DNA from: Willaertia magna
Taxonomy: Eukaryota > Heterolobosea > Eutetramitea > Acrasida > Naegleriidae
DNA length: 12,071 bases
Assembly (NCBI GenBank): GCA_902984215.1
Contig: CADWAF010000390.1
Location: 1-12,071 of the forward strand
Direction: 5' to 3'
Below the pieces are notes generated by a model. That model was given only the letters and a program-made list of their open reading frames with translations. It searched no databases and was not told the DNA's origin. The stretch's first letter is position 1. Each line of letters begins with the position of its first letter. The position numbers and the translations under genes are program-made. Shown in pieces: positions 1 to 12,071 of the stretch.

Positions 1-411
1 AGTTTGATTTGGTTTTGTTTCCATAGGACCACTATATTTAGTTGCAATAACCAAATCATTTCTATTAATGTTATGTTTTTTAATTAAATTACCAATCATT
101 GTTTCAGATTGACCAAGTGAATAGAAATTTGCAGTGTCAATAAAATTACCACCACGTTGAATATAATCTAAAAAGATTTTTTCTTGTTCTTCATCTTTAC
201 CACCAATTCCCTTGTTTTCAATTTAATATTGAAATTAATCCAAAAGACTGTCAAATAAGATACTTACAAAACCATCACTATAAATTGGATTGTAGCCAAA
301 GTGAACAGCACCTAAACCGATTGGAAAAACTCTCAAACCTGAACTTTTACTTAAAATTCTGTAGGTTGGAATGTTGGAAGTGTTATTATTATCAGTATTT
401 GTTTGTGACAT
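1..411 (-). CDS. Aldo-keto reductase, N-terminal part, spliced, runs off the window
   Basis: Two exons (411-268 and 210-1) encode 118 residues of an NAD(P)H-dependent aldo-keto reductase, a cytosolic (beta/alpha)8-barrel enzyme that reduces aldehydes and ketones. The N-terminal strand (RILSKSSGLRVFPIGLGAVHFG) leads to the family signature GGNFIDTANFYSLGQSE. The usual catalytic Asp (D73) and Tyr (Y78) are there, and the catalytic Lys is K106 in IATKYSG. The catalytic His and the cofactor-binding C-terminal half lie beyond position 1. The start is the ATG at 409-411, the only sensible one before the barrel. All Gln codons are CAA and no stop interrupts either exon, so this gene looks intact, unlike most neighbours. 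The family is clear; the substrate cannot be told. It resembles the aryl-alcohol dehydrogenase-like reductases. Confidence 0.88.
211..267 (-). other. 57-nt GT-AG intron in the aldo-keto reductase gene
   Basis: On the minus strand the intron begins GTAAGT at 267 and ends in AG at 211. Removing it joins codon 48 (Phe) directly to GIGGKDEEQ, which restores the normal spacing of the family. Left in, it would add 19 residues with two TAA codons. Its length is a multiple of three and it holds no in-frame TGA, so under a code with UAA/UAG as Gln it would go unnoticed as an insertion. Confidence 0.82.
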
Positions 412-617
412 TTGCTTTAATTTTTAATGAATTTGTTGTTGAATTTGCGCAAAGAAACTATTGAAGGTTATTTAAAATTATCCTTGCAATGTAAATGTTA
501 GTTATAAAACCACCCGTTGTTTATTTTTGTCACACATTTATATAATTTCTTTGAATTGTTATCGGCAGTGGAATTATTGTTAAACCTAAAAGTTTTAAAT
601 TAATGTTATAATTTAAA
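412..617. promoter_or_regulatory. Intergenic gap: upstream of the reductase, downstream of the F-box gene
   Basis: This 206-nt AT-rich spacer must hold the promoter of the reductase (start at 411) and the 3' end signals of the F-box gene (stop at 618). Both genes run leftwards. No specific promoter or polyadenylation motif stands out against the AT-rich background. Confidence 0.35.
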
Positions 618-1771
618 TTAATTAAAATATTTTTGTTCAATAAAGCAATAATTATCCTTAAAGTATTGCAATAAATATTCCTTATTTTTAATCTTTCCTT
701 TTACACCTTTCTGACTACCTGTTAATAATAAATATAATTTTTCAATCTTTTCCACATCACTATTTAAAACAATTTTACAATAACTATCCAAAATATTAAA
801 ATCATTTGTAATAGGGTTATCTAATTCATTTTGTAATATATGAATGGCGTTATTTAATGGTTTTTTGTTAAATGACATTAAATAAAGGGCGGTTTCTTTT
901 TTTGTTTTTAAATTTCCTTCTTTTGTAGTTAAAACATGTTGTAATGCTTTTTCAATAAAATAATCGCTTACAACAAATGTACTGTAAAAATATTTATTTA
1001 TTAATTTCTTTAATTCAGTAAACGTTAAATTAGGTTGAGTAATTAATAAATAAAAAATATTAAAAGAATAATTATGAGCATTTTTCATAATATTACAAAA
1101 AGTATCAAAAGAATATAATTTATTTTGTAAATATTTTTCTAACATTGCATTATTATATTTTGGTTTAAAATTTTTTAAAAAATATTCAATATTTTTTAAT
1201 TTATCTCCATTATTAGAAATATATTCAAAAAATAAATTATATAATTTTTCAAATCTATCATCCAATGTATTGTAACGATTTATTTCTTTAACAATATCTG
1301 TATTTAATAAACATTTAGATAATTTTAAAAATTTATTTAATAATAAATTAATTGCGTTAAAAACTTCTTTTTGTTTTGTTTCAGAATTAAATTTTATTAT
1401 AAATTTACAATCTTCATTGTCGTCAACACAAGGTTTTGTAAAGAGTTTGTAACGAAACAAATATTATAATTTTTATCATAATCTTTTAAGTATGAAAATA
1501 AAATATTAAATAATTTATTCCAATTCAATGAACAGTTTTTTCCTCGTGGAAAATATTGATCTATAATAAATTGATAATTATTTAATTCTTTCTTAATAAA
1601 ATTATTTAATAATTGTTTACGAAGTAACTTTGATTTTAATTCTTTGTTATTAGTTAATTGATTATTTCATTCTTTACAAACTAATAGAAAGGAAGACATG
1701 TTACGGAGCTCTAAATATTCAATAATTAAAAATAAAATATCATCGTTTAATGTCAAGTCTTGTCTTTTCAT
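618..1771 (-). pseudogene. F-box protein gene with an in-frame TGA and a frame change
   Basis: The minus-strand frame opens at the ATG at 1769-1771 with an F-box: LTLNDDILFLIIEYL, then LRNMSSFLLVCKE. F-box proteins recruit substrates to SCF ubiquitin ligases through SKP1. A TGA at 1667-1669 falls exactly where F-boxes usually have Trp (VCKE-stop-NNQL), which one G-to-A change of TGG would give. The frame runs on without TAA/TAG to about 1480. Coding then continues in another frame from about 1475 to the TAA at 618-620 for about 280 residues (for example SFDTFCNIMKNAHNY), rich in Asn, Lys and Leu, probably helical. Every Gln codon in both parts is CAA or CAG. No GT-AG intron at the junction explains the frame change, so it is an indel or a sequencing error. 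The F-box call is good; the partner-binding part is unrecognised. Confidence 0.68.
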
Positions 1772-1860
1772 TTTTTTTGGACTTGGATTGGGGGCTTCAA
1801 AAAAATGACAAAACAAAAAAACCAGCAAGGACTAGTAAGAAATAGAAACAGCTTAATAAT

Positions 1861-2897
1861 GCTGTGTCAAATAATACAAATAACAGTGTAGGAGGAGAAG
1901 ATGAGAAAAAGAAAAATGTTTACAAAAATCTAAACAAAGCCTTTAGAGTCATTGTAATATTTAAGAATAATAAAGAATTTACTAATGAGGAAATAATGAA
2001 AACTCTTAAATTAAGTAATACTGGAGTTGGTTTTATTTCTTAATTAAATAAAGAAATTGGAGGTGCGGTAATTTATTTTAGATGTAGATACACTGCAGAA
2101 ATGACTTTTAAGTATTTTAGAAATGAATTTTATGTTATGTTATAATCTAAAATTACAAAAATAAAATATCAAGTTAAATTAACTATTAACAATAAAGTTA
2201 TCTGTAAAGTTATTAAATATTTTAACAATTAACAAAATCCAGTATTAAGCATGAACTTTGTATTAAACATTAAATTTTAGGCCATTAGATTAGAAAATAT
2301 ATTTATGGCTGAAATTAATACGGATATATTAAAATATTTAAAAGTCTTTAATTTCAATAGAACTACTATTAAACTTAAAGTTCCAAAAGAGATTTCTAAT
2401 GAATATATTACAAAAGTTGTAAAAAAAAATTGAGACATTGATGGTAAAGTTAGTAATAAATATAACTTTACAATGTTTTTTATTGTATACAGAATAAATT
2501 TAATGATAAAATATCTAAAAGTTTTTACATTAGTTTAAATTAAATTGTAAACTATAGTTAGTATAGTAAATAAAAATATCTAAAAACTAAAAATAAAAAG
2601 AAATCATTAAATAAAATAGAATACACTGTCACAAAAGTTAACATTATTACTAAAACATTAGAAACTATTCAAATTAAAATTAACTTAATCAACAATGTGG
2701 ATTTTAATGAATAGAATAATGTTAAACATGTTATTAATAGTATTAAAAAAAAATATAATATCATTAAACTATAACTAAACAATTTAGAATTATCTAATAA
2801 TTATGTTAACAGTAAAGTTGATAAATATCTTAAAAGTAATACAGAAAAACAAGTTCTTAGAAAGTTATTTAATAACTTTGCATTTTGTTTTAAATAA
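1861..2897 (+). pseudogene. LINE ORF1 remnant (basic, RNA-binding type protein expected)
   Basis: The frame is readable from about 1861 (SNNTNNSVGGEDEKKKN), through a segment that could be an RRM-like fold (FRVIVIFKNNKEFT...VGFIS), to about 2550. It then changes frame and continues as a Lys/Asn-rich stretch likely to be helical (TLETIQIKINLINN) to a double TAA at 2895-2900. LINE ORF1 proteins bind element RNA; that role is inferred from position and composition, not from a decisive motif. In-frame TAA/TAG occur many times and one TGA (2431-2433) sits at a possible Trp. The start codon is not certain. The double TAA, 15 nt before the ORF2 ATG, looks like a real end and suggests TAA terminates in this genome. 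Confidence 0.6.
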
Positions 2898-2914
2898 TAA
2901 TTTATCAAATTGGA

Positions 2915-4990
2915 ATGGCTAGTATAAATTTATTTAATTTATTTCTTATTAAAAAAAAGTATTATCTTAGATAATATCTCTAAATTTTATCATAAGGTAA
3001 TAAATATATAAGAAACTTATTGGGATGAAAAAAAAGATTAGTATAAAGTTAGTTATTTACAAAAGTTTATTGGACAATGTAATGTTTTTAATGGTTTTAA
3101 AAACATTAATGATCATTATAATAGAGTACTAATTATTTTCAAACTTTATAAATCATAGCAAGTAGTATAGTTTCAAAAAATCATTAAAAGAAGACTTATA
3201 AACTTAATTTATAATCACCCTGTTATAAATGTATTAAATATTATTAATTAGTATAAATATTTAAATATTAATGACATTAACTTCACTTATCTGTTTAATC
3301 ATGTAGAGTCTATTATTTTATATGCTTTAATATATAAAGAATGTGTAATCATATTAGGTGTTTTTAATATGATTATAGTTAAAAATATTAAAGTTAACAT
3401 AAATAGTCAAGATAAAACATTAGAATCATAAATTAATAGATTATAATTACATGATTTACTTTTTAGTAATCTTAAACTTATCTTTTAAGCAACATAATAG
3501 TTTTTATGCTTATACTAATTCTTGCTCAAATTATATTATTAATAACTAAACTAACTAGTCTTAACTTAATATAAAAGAATAACAGTGAACTTTTCTATTA
3601 CTTTTAATGATAACAATAAATGGAATAGTAATTTTGTAAAGTTTTAAATAAAAAACTATTATGAATAATCAAGTAGTGCACTTTAGCAATATGTTTAACA
3701 TATTTTTTGGAGATACTACTATAAATTTAGATAACATTACTAATAAACTTTTAGTTAACTAGAAACTTTAAGAAGTAACAAGTAAAAATGTTAAATTTTT
3801 TACAATAAATTTAAACAACTCAATGCAAAGTTAAAATAATATATCAGTAGTATTATTAAAGAATTTAAATAATATTGCTTATGACTTTTTAGCAAAGTTT
3901 TTTAATGAATAGATTAATGAGTTACTTACTTTTACTATTAGATTGTAAAGTTGGTCTACTGTTATTTTTATTTAAAGTTATAATTCTCAAAGAATTTAAG
4001 GATTTTAGATTAATAGTAGTTTTTCCTACAATTTATCGTCTTTATTCTACTATTATTAACAACTAATTAATAGATGCTACTGATAATTATAAAATAGTTC
4101 ATGATTGTCAAAGAAAATTTTGTAAAAAAGCTTCTACATTAGATTATTTAATGGTTATAAAAACAATAATAGAAAACCAACTCAACAACAATAAAGGAGT
4201 ATTTTTAACTACTTTGGATATTAAGAATGCATATAAGTCTATTCTGTATAACAAATTTGAAGATATTTTTTAAACATCTTAGAGTTCAAAAAATATCTAT
4301 TAAGGCTATTACTAATATGATATTTAACTAAAGTATTGAAATTTTATCTAAAAGTAAACTGTTTAAATATTTTAATGTTAAGTTAAGAGTTCTACAAAAG
4401 GATCTATTTAGTCCTTTGTTATTTAATATTTACTTTAATAGTCTCACAAGTAAATTAGAGAATTTTAGAGGAGTTACAATTTGTGGTATTAAAATTGTTC
4501 TACTAAAGTATGTAAATAATATTATAGTTATATGTGAGCGTTATCAAAATATAAATAAGATTTTAAAGAACTTATATAATTTAACTTTATAACTAGAAAT
4601 ACATTTTGCACTAAATAAGTGTATAACTTAGAATAGAATCTCATTTAATTATAAGTCTAAAGCTATAATAGATTTTTTACAAATATAAATTTTATTATCT
4701 TTGTTAAGAAATAAACTGAATTTTTACTACAAAATATAGATCTAATTTCTTTATTTTGTAAAATCATTATGGGACTAATTTTATCATGTTTTGAGTAATG
4801 TAAATAAGGAAAAATTTCATAAAATTTAATTTTTTTTCTATTAATCCATAAACTGGAAAAAAAAAATTATTTGATAACAAAAAATCATTAAAAAAAATGC
4901 AGAAAAAAATTGTCAACAAATTATTATAGTCTAAGAAATATTAAGTGCCTGTCATTATAATAATTGTAAAGTCATTAATTTGAATTAAAT
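2915..4990 (+). pseudogene. LINE ORF2 remnant: AP endonuclease then reverse transcriptase
   Basis: ORF2 nicks target DNA and primes reverse transcription there. It opens MASINLFNLFLIKKKYYL at 2915. Endonuclease landmarks follow: the Gln-Glu-Thr motif at 3009-3017 (Gln codon is TAA; INIQETYW), YNRVLIIF, the ILGVFNM block (3357; usual GDFN, Asp changed to Val), LHDLLFSN, and a tail ending NDNNKWNSNF near 3630. Reverse transcriptase landmarks: FRLIVVFPTIYRLYS near 4004 (usually RPI), CQRKFCKKASTLDYL, LTTLDIKNAYKS near 4214 with the motif A Asp kept, LQKDLFSPLLFNIYF (usually QGD), and KYVNNIIV at 4506-4529 where the catalytic A/V-D-D has become V-N-N. Frame changes occur near 3000, 3500, 3650, 3990 and 4270. 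The C-terminal part after 4690 is poorly defined. Domain identity is secure; the enzyme is dead. Confidence 0.85.
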
Positions 4991-6104: not shown

Positions 6105-6329
6105 TCAAATAAAAAATTTAACAAATAATTTAATATGATTTCTACCACTTGACATTTTAATAATTTTATTTTGACTTTCCGAAAAGGGTTTTTGATGATT
6201 TAATGGATTTGTTAAATTTTTAATGTGAAATGTTCCAAAAGTGTAATTTGATTTTTACATAAATGATTCATTAAGATTATACATATAATTTTCAAATCCG
6301 ATACCAATCTTTAGTATTTGTTGTTGTAT
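6105..6329 (-). pseudogene. Mutated copy of the small unknown gene at 11880
   Basis: This is the minus-strand counterpart of the gene starting at 11880. The start ATG has become ATA (6327-6329) and MQKP has become M-stop-KS with TAA at 6255-6257 against CAA at 11955-11957. The frame then runs through KMSSGRNHIKLFVKFFI to a TGA at 6105-6107, showing how the other copy probably continues past the window edge. All substitutions relative to 11880-12071 are G/C to A/T. The product is unknown. With start and frame lost, this copy cannot make the protein. Confidence 0.72.
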
Positions 6330-6592
6330 TTTTTTTTAGTTGGTGCGTTGTTGTGTTAAAAAAGATTTTGTAAAATTATGTTATAAAATTTATTAATTAC
6401 ATAACAAATATTATTTAAATATTAGTAAATTTGATCTTGTCTAACAATTTCTTGTAGAAAACCTTCACACTGATATAAAACTTTAGCAATCAATAGATGA
6501 TTATTTTTCAATAATTGTTTCACACTTTTTTCCTTATTATCACATTATTCACATAATGAAATACCCAAATCTTTAATTAAATAATAAACTAA
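6141..6592 (-). repeat. Inverted duplication, left copy (partner 11640-12071)
   Basis: The reverse complement aligns to 11640-12071 over the ankyrin-like C-terminus, a diverged linker, and the small unknown gene. The part farthest into the small gene (6141-6211) is identical. The linker carries indels and the ankyrin end more differences. Because the right copy is cut by the window edge, the duplication probably extends further beyond 6141. Confidence 0.88.
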
Positions 6593-7348
6593 ATTTGCTT
6601 TTGTTTCTTCTAATTTACAACAAGTATGTAATAAACCTTCACTATTATTATTTTTAGTATATAATAATTTTGGAACTTTTTCGGTGGTTTTTAGAGTTAA
6701 AAGATTTTCAATATTTTGATTAAAACAAATTAATAATTGACAAATATTATTTCCTTTATAATTAATAGATAATAATTCTTCTAGAGTAAACAATTCAATA
6801 AATTCTAATAATATAAATGGTTCAAATCTAAATAAATTTAATAATAAAAGTAATTCCATTAAATTACATAAAACATCCAAACAATAAATTGATTGTAATA
6901 AAATCTTTTTTAAAATATCTTTACCATGACGTTGATATAAAGTATATAAGAAATATTCTATAAAATTTTTATCATTTAATTTTAAGACAACATATTGAGC
7001 AATCTCAATAATAATGTCTTTCTTATCTAAAAGCAAGGAATTTACTAGTATTAGAAGAATTTCTAATAACCGTACTGCTTTATATAATTGAAGAATTTCA
7101 ATAATTTGATTTTCATAATTGTAACCATATTTAGTTAAACATAAATAAATATTTACAATTAAACCTTATTATGTTCCATAAAATATTCTACTACCTTGAT
7201 ATTCATTAGCTAAATATATTAAATATTGAATTAAACATAAATTATTTGGTTCTTCTAAAGAAAATGATCGAAAAGAAAAGTTTTCAACTAAAAAGTAATT
7301 GTTTTTAATCTAATATTCTAATAACCACTTTTTCATACTTAAATCCAT
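6422..7348 (-). pseudogene. Ankyrin-like repeat protein, interrupted by TAG/TAA codons
   Basis: From the ATG at 7346-7348 (MDLSMKKWLLEY) the frame continues to a TAA at 6422-6424 (RQDQIY-stop), about 308 codons. It is interrupted by TAG near 7310, a TAA pair near 7168, and TAA at 6545-6547. The last replaces a Gln that is CAG at 11688-11690 in the other copy (CE-Q-CDNK). The C-terminal third has ankyrin-like helix pairs: GLLHTCCKLEE, NLVYYLIKDLGISLCE, KSVKQLLKNNH, LIAKVLYQ. Such repeats usually bind proteins. The N-terminal part is Leu/Ile-rich helix. The frame also reads upstream of 7348 (DIVYIQPFS), so it may once have been fused to the leucine-rich gene to its right. Repeat match is weak, so the ankyrin label is tentative. 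Confidence 0.62.
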
Positions 7349-7365
7349 TATTCTTTTACCATTGA

Positions 7366-8193
7366 TTACAATATAACTATAAACACTGTTATTATTATTT
7401 GAAAATGGTTGTATATAGACAATATCAGTAATGTACAATCAATATTTAAACAAGCTTGTTGAAATGTTAAATGTAATGCTTCATTTTTTAAAACTTTTTC
7501 CAAATTTCTATATCCCTCATCATACAATAGAAAAATATTAACTCTTTCTAAATTATCGAATTATTTCAGTTGTGGCGATTGTATAGTTGATGAAATAAAA
7601 CTAAAGTTATTGTTATGCATAAAGATTAAATTTACTTTTTTCACATTTGGTAAACTATTTATAAAATTTACTATATGACCAAAGAAGCTGTAATTAAAAC
7701 TTTTTGAATAATTAATAAAAGTAATGGTAGTTAAATTCTTTAAGCAATCAAACAATAATTTTAAATTACTTTTTAAAGAATAATCATTGAATATTGTACA
7801 ATTAAATTGTAAACTTTTAATGGTTTCATTATCATCAATATATTCAACTAAATATAATTTCGTTGGCATATTAGATGAATAATGATCAGTTTTATTATAA
7901 ATTAATTGATTGGCTGTTTTGATGTTTGTAAAATATGCAAAATGTTGTTCTTCTAAAGCTTTTTCATTTTGATTAGTACTCATTGGTGTTCTTAAATTAA
8001 TTGATTGTGGCATTGTATTTTCATTCTTGATCTGTGATTTTATTTTATCTACTTTAAAATTTTTAGATAATTGTTATTCTAATTGACTTAAATTATTTTC
8101 TAAAAGTTTAAAAATATCAACAGAAGAAATGTCAATTAGTTAATAATTCTTCTTCTTTTTCTTACGTTTTATTTTCAATAAGTGATTTATTTT
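7366..8193 (-). pseudogene. Leucine-rich-repeat-like protein with in-frame TAA codons
   Basis: The minus-strand frame is bounded by TGA at 8191-8193. It reads NYQLIDISSVDIFKLLENN, SQIKNENTMPQSINLRT (an ATG at 8011-8013), then irregular leucine-rich segments: NLKLLFDCLKNLTTITFIN, NFINSLPNVKKVNLIF, QLK-stop-FDNLERVNIFLL, NLEKVLKNEALHL. TAA interrupts at three places (near 8140, near 8074, and 7561-7563), each where Gln fits. After about 7440 coding quality drops; it ends with TAA at 7366-7368, 18 nt before the next ATG at 7348. Leucine-rich domains of this kind follow F-boxes in many eukaryotes, and an F-box gene lies just upstream on the same strand, so the pair could be one gene split by decay. 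An MLK start at 8200 would be followed at once by the TGA. Confidence 0.62.
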
Positions 8194-8202
8194 TCATTTC
8201 AA

Positions 8203-8650
8203 CATTACTATCCCCAGTAAAACTTATTATTGGTATTTAGTAGCTCTAAAGGTATTACTACTAAAACTAAAAGTAGTTACTGTGCTAATTGTTCTAAAAA
8301 AACTTGTTGTTAAATATTATTGTTGAAATATATTGTCATTTTGTAGAAAAGAATTTTTTTTCTGAAAAATGCAGTAAAAAATATTCTAGAAAAATATTCC
8401 CTATGGTCAATAAGAACTTTATTTAATTATTATTTAAAAGTACATAGCCAAAACATTTCTAACAATGTAATTAACCACTTTTTCAACTTGCTTTGTAATC
8501 AATCTGTTTTTTACAACTAATCAATACCACAAAACTAAATCCCTCCAAAACTTTTACATAATAACGTTGAAAAATAAAATTCGTAGCAAAAAATTACTTT
8601 AGTAAAAATTTCCTCTTTTTTAAAAATGAGGCTAGTGAAAAAATTTTTTA
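8203..8650 (-). other. Gap between F-box and leucine-rich genes, with traces of coding sequence
   Basis: Nothing intact is seen. On the minus strand a frame at about 8640-8380 reads FATNFIFQRYYVKVLEG, then a Cys/Trp-containing stretch (LHC-stop-KCFGYVL) with several TAA/TAG and one TGA. It could be a decayed zinc-binding fragment, but no family can be assigned. The 8203-8340 part is Ser/Thr-like low complexity with many stops. Confidence 0.35.
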
Positions 8651-8668
8651 CTATTCACACTGCGCCTC
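8628..8668. repeat. GC-tipped hairpin around a 21-nt palindrome
   Basis: GAGGC (8628-8632) pairs with GCCTC (8664-8668). Inside, 8633-8653 is a palindrome (TAGTGAAAAAA then TTTTTTACTA) with a single G.T pair. It overlaps the stop codon of the F-box gene. The flank 8658-8674 is the most GC-rich spot nearby (CTGCGCCTCGGGG). It could be a transcript end hairpin or the tip of a small transposon. Confidence 0.55.
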
Positions 8669-9367
8669 GGGGAAAAAAAATTTCTTACTACAATCTTCAT
8701 TTATTATTTGATCCTTTTTCTTGTATTCTTCAAACTTTTTCTCATATAAAGTAATGTGATTTAATTGTAAAACTTTTTCAATTAATAAATCGTCACAATT
8801 TTCAATTAGTCTATTTTCATTATTAATTTTTAACTTTTTATAATCTATGTAAAGTCTTTGTAATCTTAACATTGAAACTAATTTCTACAAATGGTTCTTA
8901 TTTAATTTCTTATTTTGAATATATCCAGTTTCATAACAGTCCATAGTAATATTATCTTTATTTAAAATAAAACTTAAATCTAAATAATCTAAAGTTAAAA
9001 TCTTTAATTTCATTCTTTTATTAAATTCCTTATTAATCAATCTCATTTTATGAAAAGTCATTAATAGTGTATCTATTATAAATTTACATTCTTCCTTAAC
9101 ATTATTTGGTTCTATTAAACATTTCATTGAATTTAATATTTTTTGTTTCTTAATTTCTTGTAAATTTATTAATTCTTCATTAATCTCATTGTTATCTTTA
9201 TTTTTATTTGAAGAATAAAAAGCAGAAAGATTGTAAAAAGCTTGATCCATATTTTTTTCAATATTTATTTTAGTGTTTAATGCATAAATGTTGGAATATA
9301 TTGGAATAAAACTTATAATTTTATATTTTAAATCTAATGTTAAATCTTTTAAATATTTTACATCCAA
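8651..9367 (-). pseudogene. F-box protein with one in-frame TAG
   Basis: The frame opens after a TAA near 9371 and has no ATG before the F-box; 9365-9367 is TTG, so the true start is lost or lies in another frame. The protein begins with an F-box-like helix (LKDLTLDLKYKIISFIPI), has a charged insert (SSNKNKDNNEINEELIN), then F-box tail RLINKEFNKRMKLK and leucine-rich strands (LTLDYLDLSFIL). TAG at 8885-8887 interrupts KNHL-stop-KLVSMLRLQRL where Gln fits an LRR consensus perfectly. It ends at TAG 8651-8653 (FFPEAQCE). Eight other Gln codons are CAA or CAG. It overlaps the end of the RCC1-like gene by about 10 nt. Role: probable SCF ubiquitin ligase substrate adaptor, damaged. Confidence 0.66.
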
Positions 9368-10002
9368 ACTTTAACTAAAGGTTCATCATTTCTATAACAA
9401 TTAGCAAGATCTTGAATATTGTTATTTGTTACAAAACTAGTTTGTAATTTTTAATTTATATGGAATTCTTTTAAAATTTCTATAATTTTTGAAGGTTATG
9501 TAAACACATTTGTTGATTTTTTTGTTAATTTAAAAGCTAATAATTTTCTTGGTGCTTTTCTTTTAGTAGATTTTTTTGAAAAAGAATTTTTATTTTCGTT
9601 ATAAATGTTTCATTAAAATAAAATTATTAAACAATTTCCAACATTCATTATATTCTAAAGATGGTAATCTTAAGTAGAATGGTTTTTGACTTTTTTTTTG
9701 ATACATGAAAACAAAAAATAATTCACTTTACATACCCCGTTAATAATATATCTATTTTCTTTTTTAAAATTAAAATTAAATTCTTTAAGTTTTTTAACTT
9801 TCAATTTAAATGGTGAACCTAATTAGAAAAAAGTATTAAACTCTAAATCATAAACTCTATGTTCATTTGTTAAAAATATTATATAATTACAACCACATAT
9901 CACTTTCTTAATATTAAACTTTTCATCTTTTAAAAAGTAAAAAACATTTTAAACGATTGATGAAAAAATTCTTAATTAATAATGTCCATTATTTCTTATC
10001 AT
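9358..10002 (-). pseudogene. RCC1-like protein, spliced, with several TAA codons
   Basis: From the ATG at 10000-10002 (MIRNNGHY) the frame holds an RCC1-like blade: FNIKKVICGCNYIIFLTNEH, then RVYDLEFNTFF-stop-LG, with the typical Cys-Gly and terminal Gln-Leu-Gly; the Gln codon is TAA. RCC1 repeats form seven-bladed propellers that act on small GTPases or in ubiquitin ligases. Splicing out 9690-9735 joins RYIING to QKPFYLRLPSLEYNECW in frame. Another frame change near 9600 leads to KKSTKRKAPRKLLAFKLTKK and DLANCYRNDEPLVKVWM, ending in TAA at 9358-9360. Five TAA against four CAA Gln codons make this one of the most altered genes. Only one or two blades are recognisable, so the label is moderate. 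The gene may have continued into the F-box gene below it. Confidence 0.55.
9690..9735 (-). other. 46-nt GT-AG intron in the RCC1-like gene
   Basis: On the minus strand it starts GTATGT at 9735 and ends with an A-run and AG at 9690. Removal restores the frame (NG then QKPFYLRLP) across what is otherwise a frame change, which supports a real intron. The size is close to the other introns in the window. Confidence 0.62.
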
Positions 10003-11543: not shown

Positions 11544-11813
11544 ATAAATAAATTTTGTAAACCACAATTAAATTTTCATTTTTTTTTATTCTATAAGGTT
11601 TTTATTTATTTTAATGAAAATTTACATAATTGGAATCCTAAGTTAGTTTATTATTTAATTAAAGATTTAGATATTTCATTATGTGAACAGTGTGACAATA
11701 AGGGAAGAAGTGTGAAACAATTATTAGAAAATAATCATCCGTTGATTGCTAAAGTTTTATATCAATACGAAGGTTTTCCACAACAACTCTTAGTAAAAGA
11801 TCAAATTTACTAA
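11544..11813 (+). CDS. Ankyrin-like protein C-terminus, intact copy, 5' end unclear
   Basis: The frame is open from 11544. It becomes clearly related to the 6422-7348 gene from about 11640 (KLVYYLIKDLDISLCEQCDN, then GRSVKQLLENNH, LIAKVLYQYEGF), ending VKDQIY-TAA at 11811-11813. The Gln that is TAA in the other copy is CAG here (11688-11690) and no stop interrupts the homologous part. Upstream of 11640 the similarity ends abruptly (FNENLHNWN), so the gene is truncated, or this is an exon with its acceptor near 11597. Ankyrin-like repeats are presumed to bind proteins. The linker after the stop differs from the other copy by indels not in threes, which supports TAA being a true end. Confidence 0.6.
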   Translation: MNKFCKPQLNFHFFLFYKVFIYFNENLHNWNPKLVYYLIKDLDISLCEQCDNKGRSVKQLLENNHPLIAKVLYQYEGFPQQLLVKDQIY

Positions 11814-12071
11814 TTTTGTAAAATAATTAATAAATTTTATAACATATTACAAAAACTTTATTAACACAACCGAAAAAAAATGCAGCAACAACAAATACTA
11901 GAGATTGGCATCGGATTTGAAAATTATGTGTATAATCTTAATGAATCATTTATGCAAAAACCAAATTACACTTTTGGAACATTTCGCATTGAAAATTTAA
12001 CAAATCCATTAAATCATCAAAAACCCTTTTCGGAAAGTCAAAATAAAATTATTAAAATGTCAAGTGGTAGA
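11640..12071 (+). repeat. Inverted duplication, right copy (partner 6141-6592)
   Basis: This is the plus-strand copy of the ankyrin-like end, linker and small unknown gene. About 5.05 kb separates it from the left copy. This is the less mutated copy: it keeps the ATG, all Gln codons and the higher GC at all eight substituted sites in the small gene. Confidence 0.88.
11880..12071 (+). CDS. Small unknown protein, N-terminal 64 residues, runs off the window
   Basis: The ATG at 11880-11882 follows a run of eight A, the kind of start context common in AT-rich eukaryotes, and lies 66 nt after the ankyrin-like stop. It reads MQQQQILEIGIGFENYVYNL, NESFMQKPNYTFGTFRIENL, TNPLNHQKPFSESQNKIIKM, SSGR and continues. 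Based on the mutated copy at 6105-6329, it could end some ten residues later. All Gln codons are CAA or CAG. No family is recognised. The QKPNYTFGTFRIENL stretch looks like beta structure. Near identity of its 3' part to the other copy indicates recent duplication or gene conversion. Confidence 0.62.
   Translation, partial: MQQQQILEIGIGFENYVYNLNESFMQKPNYTFGTFRIENLTNPLNHQKPFSESQNKIIKMSSGR

Follow-up and report, generated by a model that had tools for sequence, protein, structure and literature searches.

Organization of the locus and its host genome

The window, meaning the whole stretch of DNA that was analysed, is contig C118 of a 19.24-Mb assembly in 894 contigs; it is 12,071 bases long and 81% A+T. 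Two copies of one duplicated segment lie in it on opposite strands. The left copy holds the decayed 5' end of an RCC1-type gene (the left arm, 6141..6329, minus strand), which has lost its start codon, has gained one stop (CAA to TAA) and, compared with the right arm, shows eight G/C-to-A/T substitutions and lacks 3 nt, and, forming one duplicate with it, the 3' end of an adjoining gene, the H3-tail gene (6366..6595, minus strand). In the right copy, the start of the same RCC1-type gene (the right arm, 11880..12071, plus strand) is open to the contig end over 64 codons, and the 3' end of the H3-tail gene (11640..11869, plus strand) is truncated on its 5' side and lacks an excess of C>T changes relative to contig C715 (C>T is used here for C-to-T and G-to-A together). 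An open relative of the arm gene, 62% identical over residues 3-63 and with RCC1 repeats recognized by Pfam, is found on contig C252 (L082). The H3-tail gene on the left is a pseudogene (6411..9578, minus strand) for a protein of about 1,030 residues, the gene being intact on C715 and C400. At 9604..9994 (minus strand) lies a decayed RCC1 piece related to C715:3012-3453, where Pfam RCC1 was found. A dead LINE-type retrotransposon with many TAA and TAG codons occupies 1882..4852 (plus strand), and a relative on contig C822 contains a reverse-transcriptase domain. Additionally, reading of the frames places an aldo/keto-reductase sequence at positions 1-420, and such a gene also adjoins the H3-tail genes on C715 (L078:3438-4133, plus strand; Pfam 3.3e-35); its occurrence at both places suggests that a larger segment may have been duplicated.

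The host is assigned to the heteroloboseans, and not to the fungi, by its mitochondrial cox1: among the best 120 of 7,997 matches, the nearest named organisms are Pleurostomum flabellatum (83%) and Acrasis kona (73%), and metagenome matches reach 90% identity. The nuclear code looks to be the standard one. A ciliate-type code was tried for the TAA/TAG-rich LINE frame and was ruled out by HSP70, which has no in-frame stop in 9 of 9 match rows; long standard-code frames are also present in the genome. The mitochondrial contig (C438), which also carries genes that we take to be nad7, rps12, ccmF and tatC, encodes ARAGORN-predicted tRNAs with the anticodons CTA and TTA (L040:337-409, plus strand, and L041:1501-1572, minus strand). 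These would read stop codons, yet all eight long open frames listed from four mitochondrial loci, some of them overlapping, end in TAA.

The H3-tail genes encode proteins of about 1,000 residues that start with a histone H3 tail, its 24 residues agreeing with residues 1-24 of H3 except, in some H3s, at a single position. Such sequences are located at window positions 9529-9576 (decayed, minus strand), L078:4280-7366 and 2-2734 (minus strand), L079:1631-4681 (minus strand) and G000:C724:4499-4518, and beyond the tail no Pfam family reached its cut-off. In the C715 genes, a putative intron of 53 or 55 bp (GTAAGT...TAG) separates the ATG from the next codon. The genome contains six exact ARTKQTA-coding sites, on C400, C471, C715 (twice), C724 and C846, and true H3 genes may be among these. 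A family of histone-tail mimics is thus a possible reading of these predicted proteins.

One-way change in the left arm

When the reverse complement of 6141-6326 is aligned with 11886-12071, 179 of the 186 columns are identical. The seven mismatches, at right-copy positions 11901, 11909, 11928, 11955, 11961, 11986 and 11991 (left-copy positions 6311, 6303, 6284, 6257, 6251, 6226 and 6221), all set a right-copy G or C against a left-copy A or T. An eighth substitution, the G-to-A change that turns ATG into ATA, adjoins the 3-nt indel in a CAG/CAA run just upstream of this alignment. Realignment thus confirms the initial annotation in its count of eight substitutions and one 3-nt indel, all substitutions being G/C-to-A/T in the left copy; its coordinates are right, and the start loss, the stop and the changes to Ser, His and Lys read as claimed under the standard code. 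Inference of ancestral states with an outgroup, which had been proposed as a check, places the change in the left arm at six of the eight sites when the C252 gene is used, the CAA-to-TAA and start-codon sites being uninformative; the right arm has no derived change at the six informative sites. The one-way G/C-to-A/T pattern in the left arm is therefore real and mostly polarised.

The annotation had further stated that there are no transversions and no reverse changes and that the bias is complete. The former holds within the arm and fails over the whole duplicate (6141-6595 against 11640-12071, 459 columns), which has 19 A/T-ward transitions on the left, 6 on the right and 8 transversions (4 A<>T and 4 of other kinds), so that the bias is not complete there either. 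The probability that the arm would hold no other kind of substitution is about 0.15 given the spectrum of the other dead copies, and at most 0.002 given live silent-site spectra, the latter figure resting on two ratios, 6.9 and 6.5, taken from the composition of fourfold sites and from close pairs. The occurrence of five of the eight changes in CpA or TpG had been offered as a context signal; there is no excess, since this context already accounts for 25 of the 49 scored C/G sites in the arm and holds 4 of the 7 unambiguous changes (OR 1.33, p=1).

The truncated right-copy fragment of the H3-tail gene behaves in another way. Over 192 columns aligned with C715, it shows 4 A/T-ward transitions in the window, 5 reverse transitions and 8 A<>T changes, a C>T to A<>T proportion of 4:8 that differs from the 110:35 of the left pseudogene (p=0.004) and for which comparison with the 45:24 of the same gene part on the left gives p=0.054.

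Decay of the H3-tail pseudogene and other dead copies

The open copies of the H3-tail gene are two in tandem on C715, one of them cut by the contig end, and one on C400. With C400 as the outgroup, the pseudogene branch carries C>T at 110/441 sites, the two strands being alike (C-to-T 50/192, G-to-A 60/249), T>C at 49/1,690 and 35 A<>T changes; the open sister C715b carries C>T at 15/333, T>C at 49/1,688 and 33 A<>T changes. By codon position 1/2/3, the C>T rates are.224/.263/.341 in the pseudogene and.028/.017/.229 in the live sister, and thus the constraint on C>T that the sister shows has been lost. Moreover, the pseudogene rate of 110/441 equals the silent rate of the sister over the same time (8/35, p=1), as loss of selection predicts, which argues against hypermutation. 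A burst of C>T, which might be read from the equal T>C counts (49 in each branch), was considered and is not decisive given that silent-site rate. At the first two codon positions of the pseudogene, A<>T changes (15/1,069) are less frequent than at the silent sites of the sister (18/609, p=0.04), and T>C changes are not distinguishable between them (26/1,069 against 17/609, p=0.63); the low A<>T is a hint that the copy died late and thereafter changed fast at C alone. New stops in the pseudogene arose from 7 of the 49 CAA and 3 of the 7 TGG codons of the gene.

Elsewhere in the genome, 28 further stretches match the LINE in the window, and several of these are fragments of a single copy. On the branch of the window LINE, C>T is found at 102/273 sites, T>C at 29/969 and A<>T 22 times. 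Another copy, L011 (C495), has C>T at 85/469, T>C at 17/1,327 and 6 A<>T changes. T>C in this copy is concentrated at third codon positions (12/344, compared with 5/953 at the other two, p=0.0002), and C>T is spread evenly over codon positions (13/68 against 72/394, p=0.87); the T>C changes look like those of a live phase, and the dead phase like one of almost pure C>T. In the RCC1 piece, local alignment with C715:3012-3453 gives 41 A/T-ward transitions in the window, 6 reverse transitions, 2 A<>T and 5 other transversions, and a longer alignment gives 47 C>T, 11 reverse and 6 A<>T changes. Pooled over dead copies, the per-site ratios are 16.4 (11.3-24.9) for C>T/T>C and 33.7 (20.4-60.6) for C>T/A<>T, where the pool consists of codon positions 1 and 2 of two LINE copies (that of the window and L011, out of 29 matching stretches) and the unpolarised RCC1 piece. 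The H3-tail pseudogene was left out of it because it also diverged while alive. The left arm is one case of a broader decay, dominated by C>T, that dead copies undergo in this genome.

Another pair of dead LINEs, L020 and L021 (C636 and C429), was compared over 2,083 columns and differs, unpolarised, by 277 transitions, 17 A<>T and 12 transversions of other kinds; it was dropped from the pooled figure because the outgroups aligned badly.

Sequence context and repeat-induced point mutation

The initial annotation had read the left-arm pattern as the signature of repeat-induced point mutation (RIP) or of another cytosine-deamination defence acting on duplicates. RIP is a premeiotic process that senses duplicates and changes C to T, mostly at CpA, by way of an RID-type methyltransferase. 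According to the available text of two reports, fungal RIP has CpA as its main target, and some species show CpT or CpG signatures (PMC4352252, PMC12543289). A literature search of limited coverage found no paper on RIP in Heterolobosea. The likeness to what those texts describe lies in the C:G-to-T:A transitions in duplicated DNA, to which the stops from CAA and TGG can be added here, and within the arm all eight changes are transitions. A first difference lies in the context. Counting of transitions by dinucleotide, in five segments comprising the arm, the H3-tail pseudogene, the window LINE, L011 and the RCC1 piece, gives 418 C>T at 1,553 C sites, with no preference for CpA (OR 0.93, p=0.61) and none for CpG (OR 0.99, p=0.90, from few CpG sites), and none of the CpA, CpT or CpG signatures is seen. 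A decay by CpG methylation was likewise ruled out on the pooled CpG ratio, few as those sites are. The RIP indices, also proposed as a check, are shifted in the window LINE (TpA/ApT 1.18, CpA index 0.81) relative to L014, its relative on C822 (0.91 and 1.17), and barely move in the pseudogene (0.94 and 1.17, against 0.85 and 1.31 in the intact gene). As to the kinds of change, the exclusively C:G-to-T:A transitions are those of the arm, and the pseudogene has 49 T>C and 35 A<>T as well.

RIP is further disfavoured by which copies have changed. Only one member of the pair is mutated, C715b having C>T at 15/333 sites and the pseudogene at 110/441, and linked, near-identical duplicates are spared. 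The tandem C715 copies a and b are 96.9% identical over 2,753 columns, with 24 and 31 A/T-ward transitions, and their frames are open over the sequenced part (911 and 1,029 codons); the LINE pair on C822 is 95.5% identical over 3,325 columns, with transitions divided 56:67 and frames that are largely open, with a stop in places. Additionally, the host is heterolobosean by its cox1 and not a fungus. RIP in its known form is thus not supported as the cause of the left-arm pattern, and we consider it very improbable; a deamination process of another kind, tied to silenced DNA, is possible.

A single-strand cytidine deaminase or UV damage would produce C>T changes that favour a pyrimidine before the C. 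Such a preference is found in the pooled segments (OR 1.41, p=0.004), where it is driven by L011 (OR 2.20, p=0.0003); the pseudogene lacks it (OR 0.86), and the arm shows the opposite tendency (OR 0.25, p=0.12). Moreover, C-to-T and G-to-A changes are interspersed in L011 (runs z 0.61), and this explanation is accordingly an improbable one, if less so than RIP.

Mutation pressure toward A/T on dead DNA as a proposed explanation

Ordinary A/T pressure on dead DNA, which the initial annotation had named as its alternative, is the simplest account of the one-way pattern, and we give it about an even chance of being correct. The left arm is part of a dead duplicate. Once selection was lost, C:G pairs would have changed to T:A on both strands, whatever base follows, and few other changes would have accrued. 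The driver would be the strong mutation pressure toward A/T in this genome, which becomes visible where selection has ended, and no machinery that senses duplicates would be needed. Spontaneous cytosine deamination is the usual source of A/T-ward mutation, and we infer that spontaneous mutation rather than an enzyme makes the C>T changes. The decay resembles that of pseudogenes and dead transposons under A/T pressure in that frames are lost, C>T is flat over codon positions, the strands are alike and the composition drifts toward that of the A/T-richest spacers.

This last point can be put in numbers. A C>T/T>C ratio of 16.4 predicts an equilibrium of 5.7% GC (3.9-8.1%), and spacers below 8% GC were found as 7 runs in 6 of the 35 sampled loci, amounting to 23% of 24,542 non-ORF bases. 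The match between the predicted 4-8% GC and the A/T-richest spacers means that general mutation pressure suffices for the C>T/T>C ratio, which agrees with the composition of neutral DNA provided that the A/T-richest runs are neutral. If they are, the genome would already be at the composition set by this spectrum, and weak selection or biased conversion would hold live silent sites above it (12.7% GC at fourfold positions). Against this, most of the sampled non-ORF DNA is richer than 4-8% GC, with a mean of.185 and a median run of.23.

Spacers below 8% GC over hundreds of bases flank tRNAs, beside genes of about 25-30% GC, at L043, L047, L056, L058, L060 and L063.

The C>T/A<>T ratio is harder to reconcile with A/T pressure. 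At live third positions, C>T/T>C is 2.3 (1.1-4.5) and C>T/A<>T is 5.1 (2.2-10.7), a baseline that pools four branches, which overlap, and counts no more than 9 C>T, along with 46 T>C and 21 A<>T. At fourfold sites, C>T/A<>T is 3.8-10.7 in four close-pair comparisons and 1.3-2.7 in three comparisons of more distant pairs. In four small spacer pairs it is 0-2.5, on a total of 13 transitions and 23 A<>T; these pairs are A/T tracts, a promoter and a tRNA flank and may mislead. NUMTs could not serve as single-copy dead controls, a mitochondrial query giving only matches of 67-187 bp outside the mitochondrial contig. One mutation pressure should act alike everywhere, and therefore a ratio of about 34 (20-61) in dead copies, against 5.1 at live third positions, 3.8-10.7 in the close pairs and 0-2.5 in the spacers, counts against it: relative to C>T, A<>T changes are scarcer here than at live silent sites and in the few spacers examined, unlike what ordinary decay of pseudogenes and transposons would give. 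The alternative named in the annotation accounts for C>T/T>C; C>T/A<>T exceeds that of live silent sites and may have a further cause. Two other observations weigh against the alternative, namely the concentration of T>C in L011 at position 3, with C>T flat, which would look like a burst of C>T after its death, and the lack of the C>T excess in the right-copy fragment.

Possible methylation-coupled decay

A different explanation can be considered, in which silenced repeats and dead duplicates would carry 5mC in all four dinucleotide contexts and deamination of 5mC would make C-to-T change faster, on both strands. The 5mC would be deposited by a DNMT1-type enzyme, as in Naegleria gruberi. We regard this as a serious candidate, though one with a lesser chance than A/T pressure. 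In the available text on N. gruberi, 5mC occurs at similar levels in all four dinucleotide contexts, is enriched in repeats, and the genes that carry it are mostly silent and heterochromatic (PMC12344493). If 5mC lies in all contexts, its footprint would be context-free C>T on silenced repeats, and the C>T changes described here are indeed context-free (CpA OR 0.93, CpG OR 0.99), similar in all four contexts as is N. gruberi 5mC. Methylation would also fit the rise of C>T/A<>T in dead copies only, the two-phase pattern in L011 and the right-copy fragment without the pattern (4:8 against 110:35).

A search for methyltransferases, which the initial annotation had proposed for RIP-type enzymes, found two PF00145 genes, one on C319 (DNMT1-type) and one on C456, which by reading is Dnmt2-like. 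The genome thus encodes a predicted DNMT1-type methyltransferase on C319, a putative gene in keeping with methylation. Its catalytic part matches DNMT1 structures at 1.2e-43, and a frame upstream is similar to mouse-type DNMT1 chains (1.3e-6, residues 272-361). This latter match presumably falls in the BAH region. In the six-frame reading, the C319 match has two in-frame stops, which count against this explanation and may mark an intron. Two TET/JBP-like matches were found, both below the cut-off, and these too count against it. Moreover, the C>T/T>C ratio is explained without methylation, and the pseudogene C>T rate does not exceed the silent rate of the sister.

The likeness to N. gruberi CX methylation, as far as the available text describes it, includes a heterolobosean host, a DNMT1-type gene, no dinucleotide preference and the involvement of repeats and silent loci; the difference is that 5mC itself is reported there, with no C>T footprint in that text, whereas what is seen here is sequence change (PMC12344493). 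It is possible, though less likely than not, that heterolobosean silenced repeats are worn down by a context-free, C>T-only process that would be the footprint of CX methylation, a slow, non-fungal analogue of RIP that would erase dead duplicates without sensing duplication.

Implications

These results take away a tempting case for RIP outside the fungi, in a protist, and show that A/T pressure on a dead copy can mimic RIP in a short alignment. They also raise a question about CX methylation in heteroloboseans, namely whether silenced repeats bear C>T changes without sequence context as its footprint. If they do, such a footprint would tie the unusual Naegleria methylome to genome evolution.
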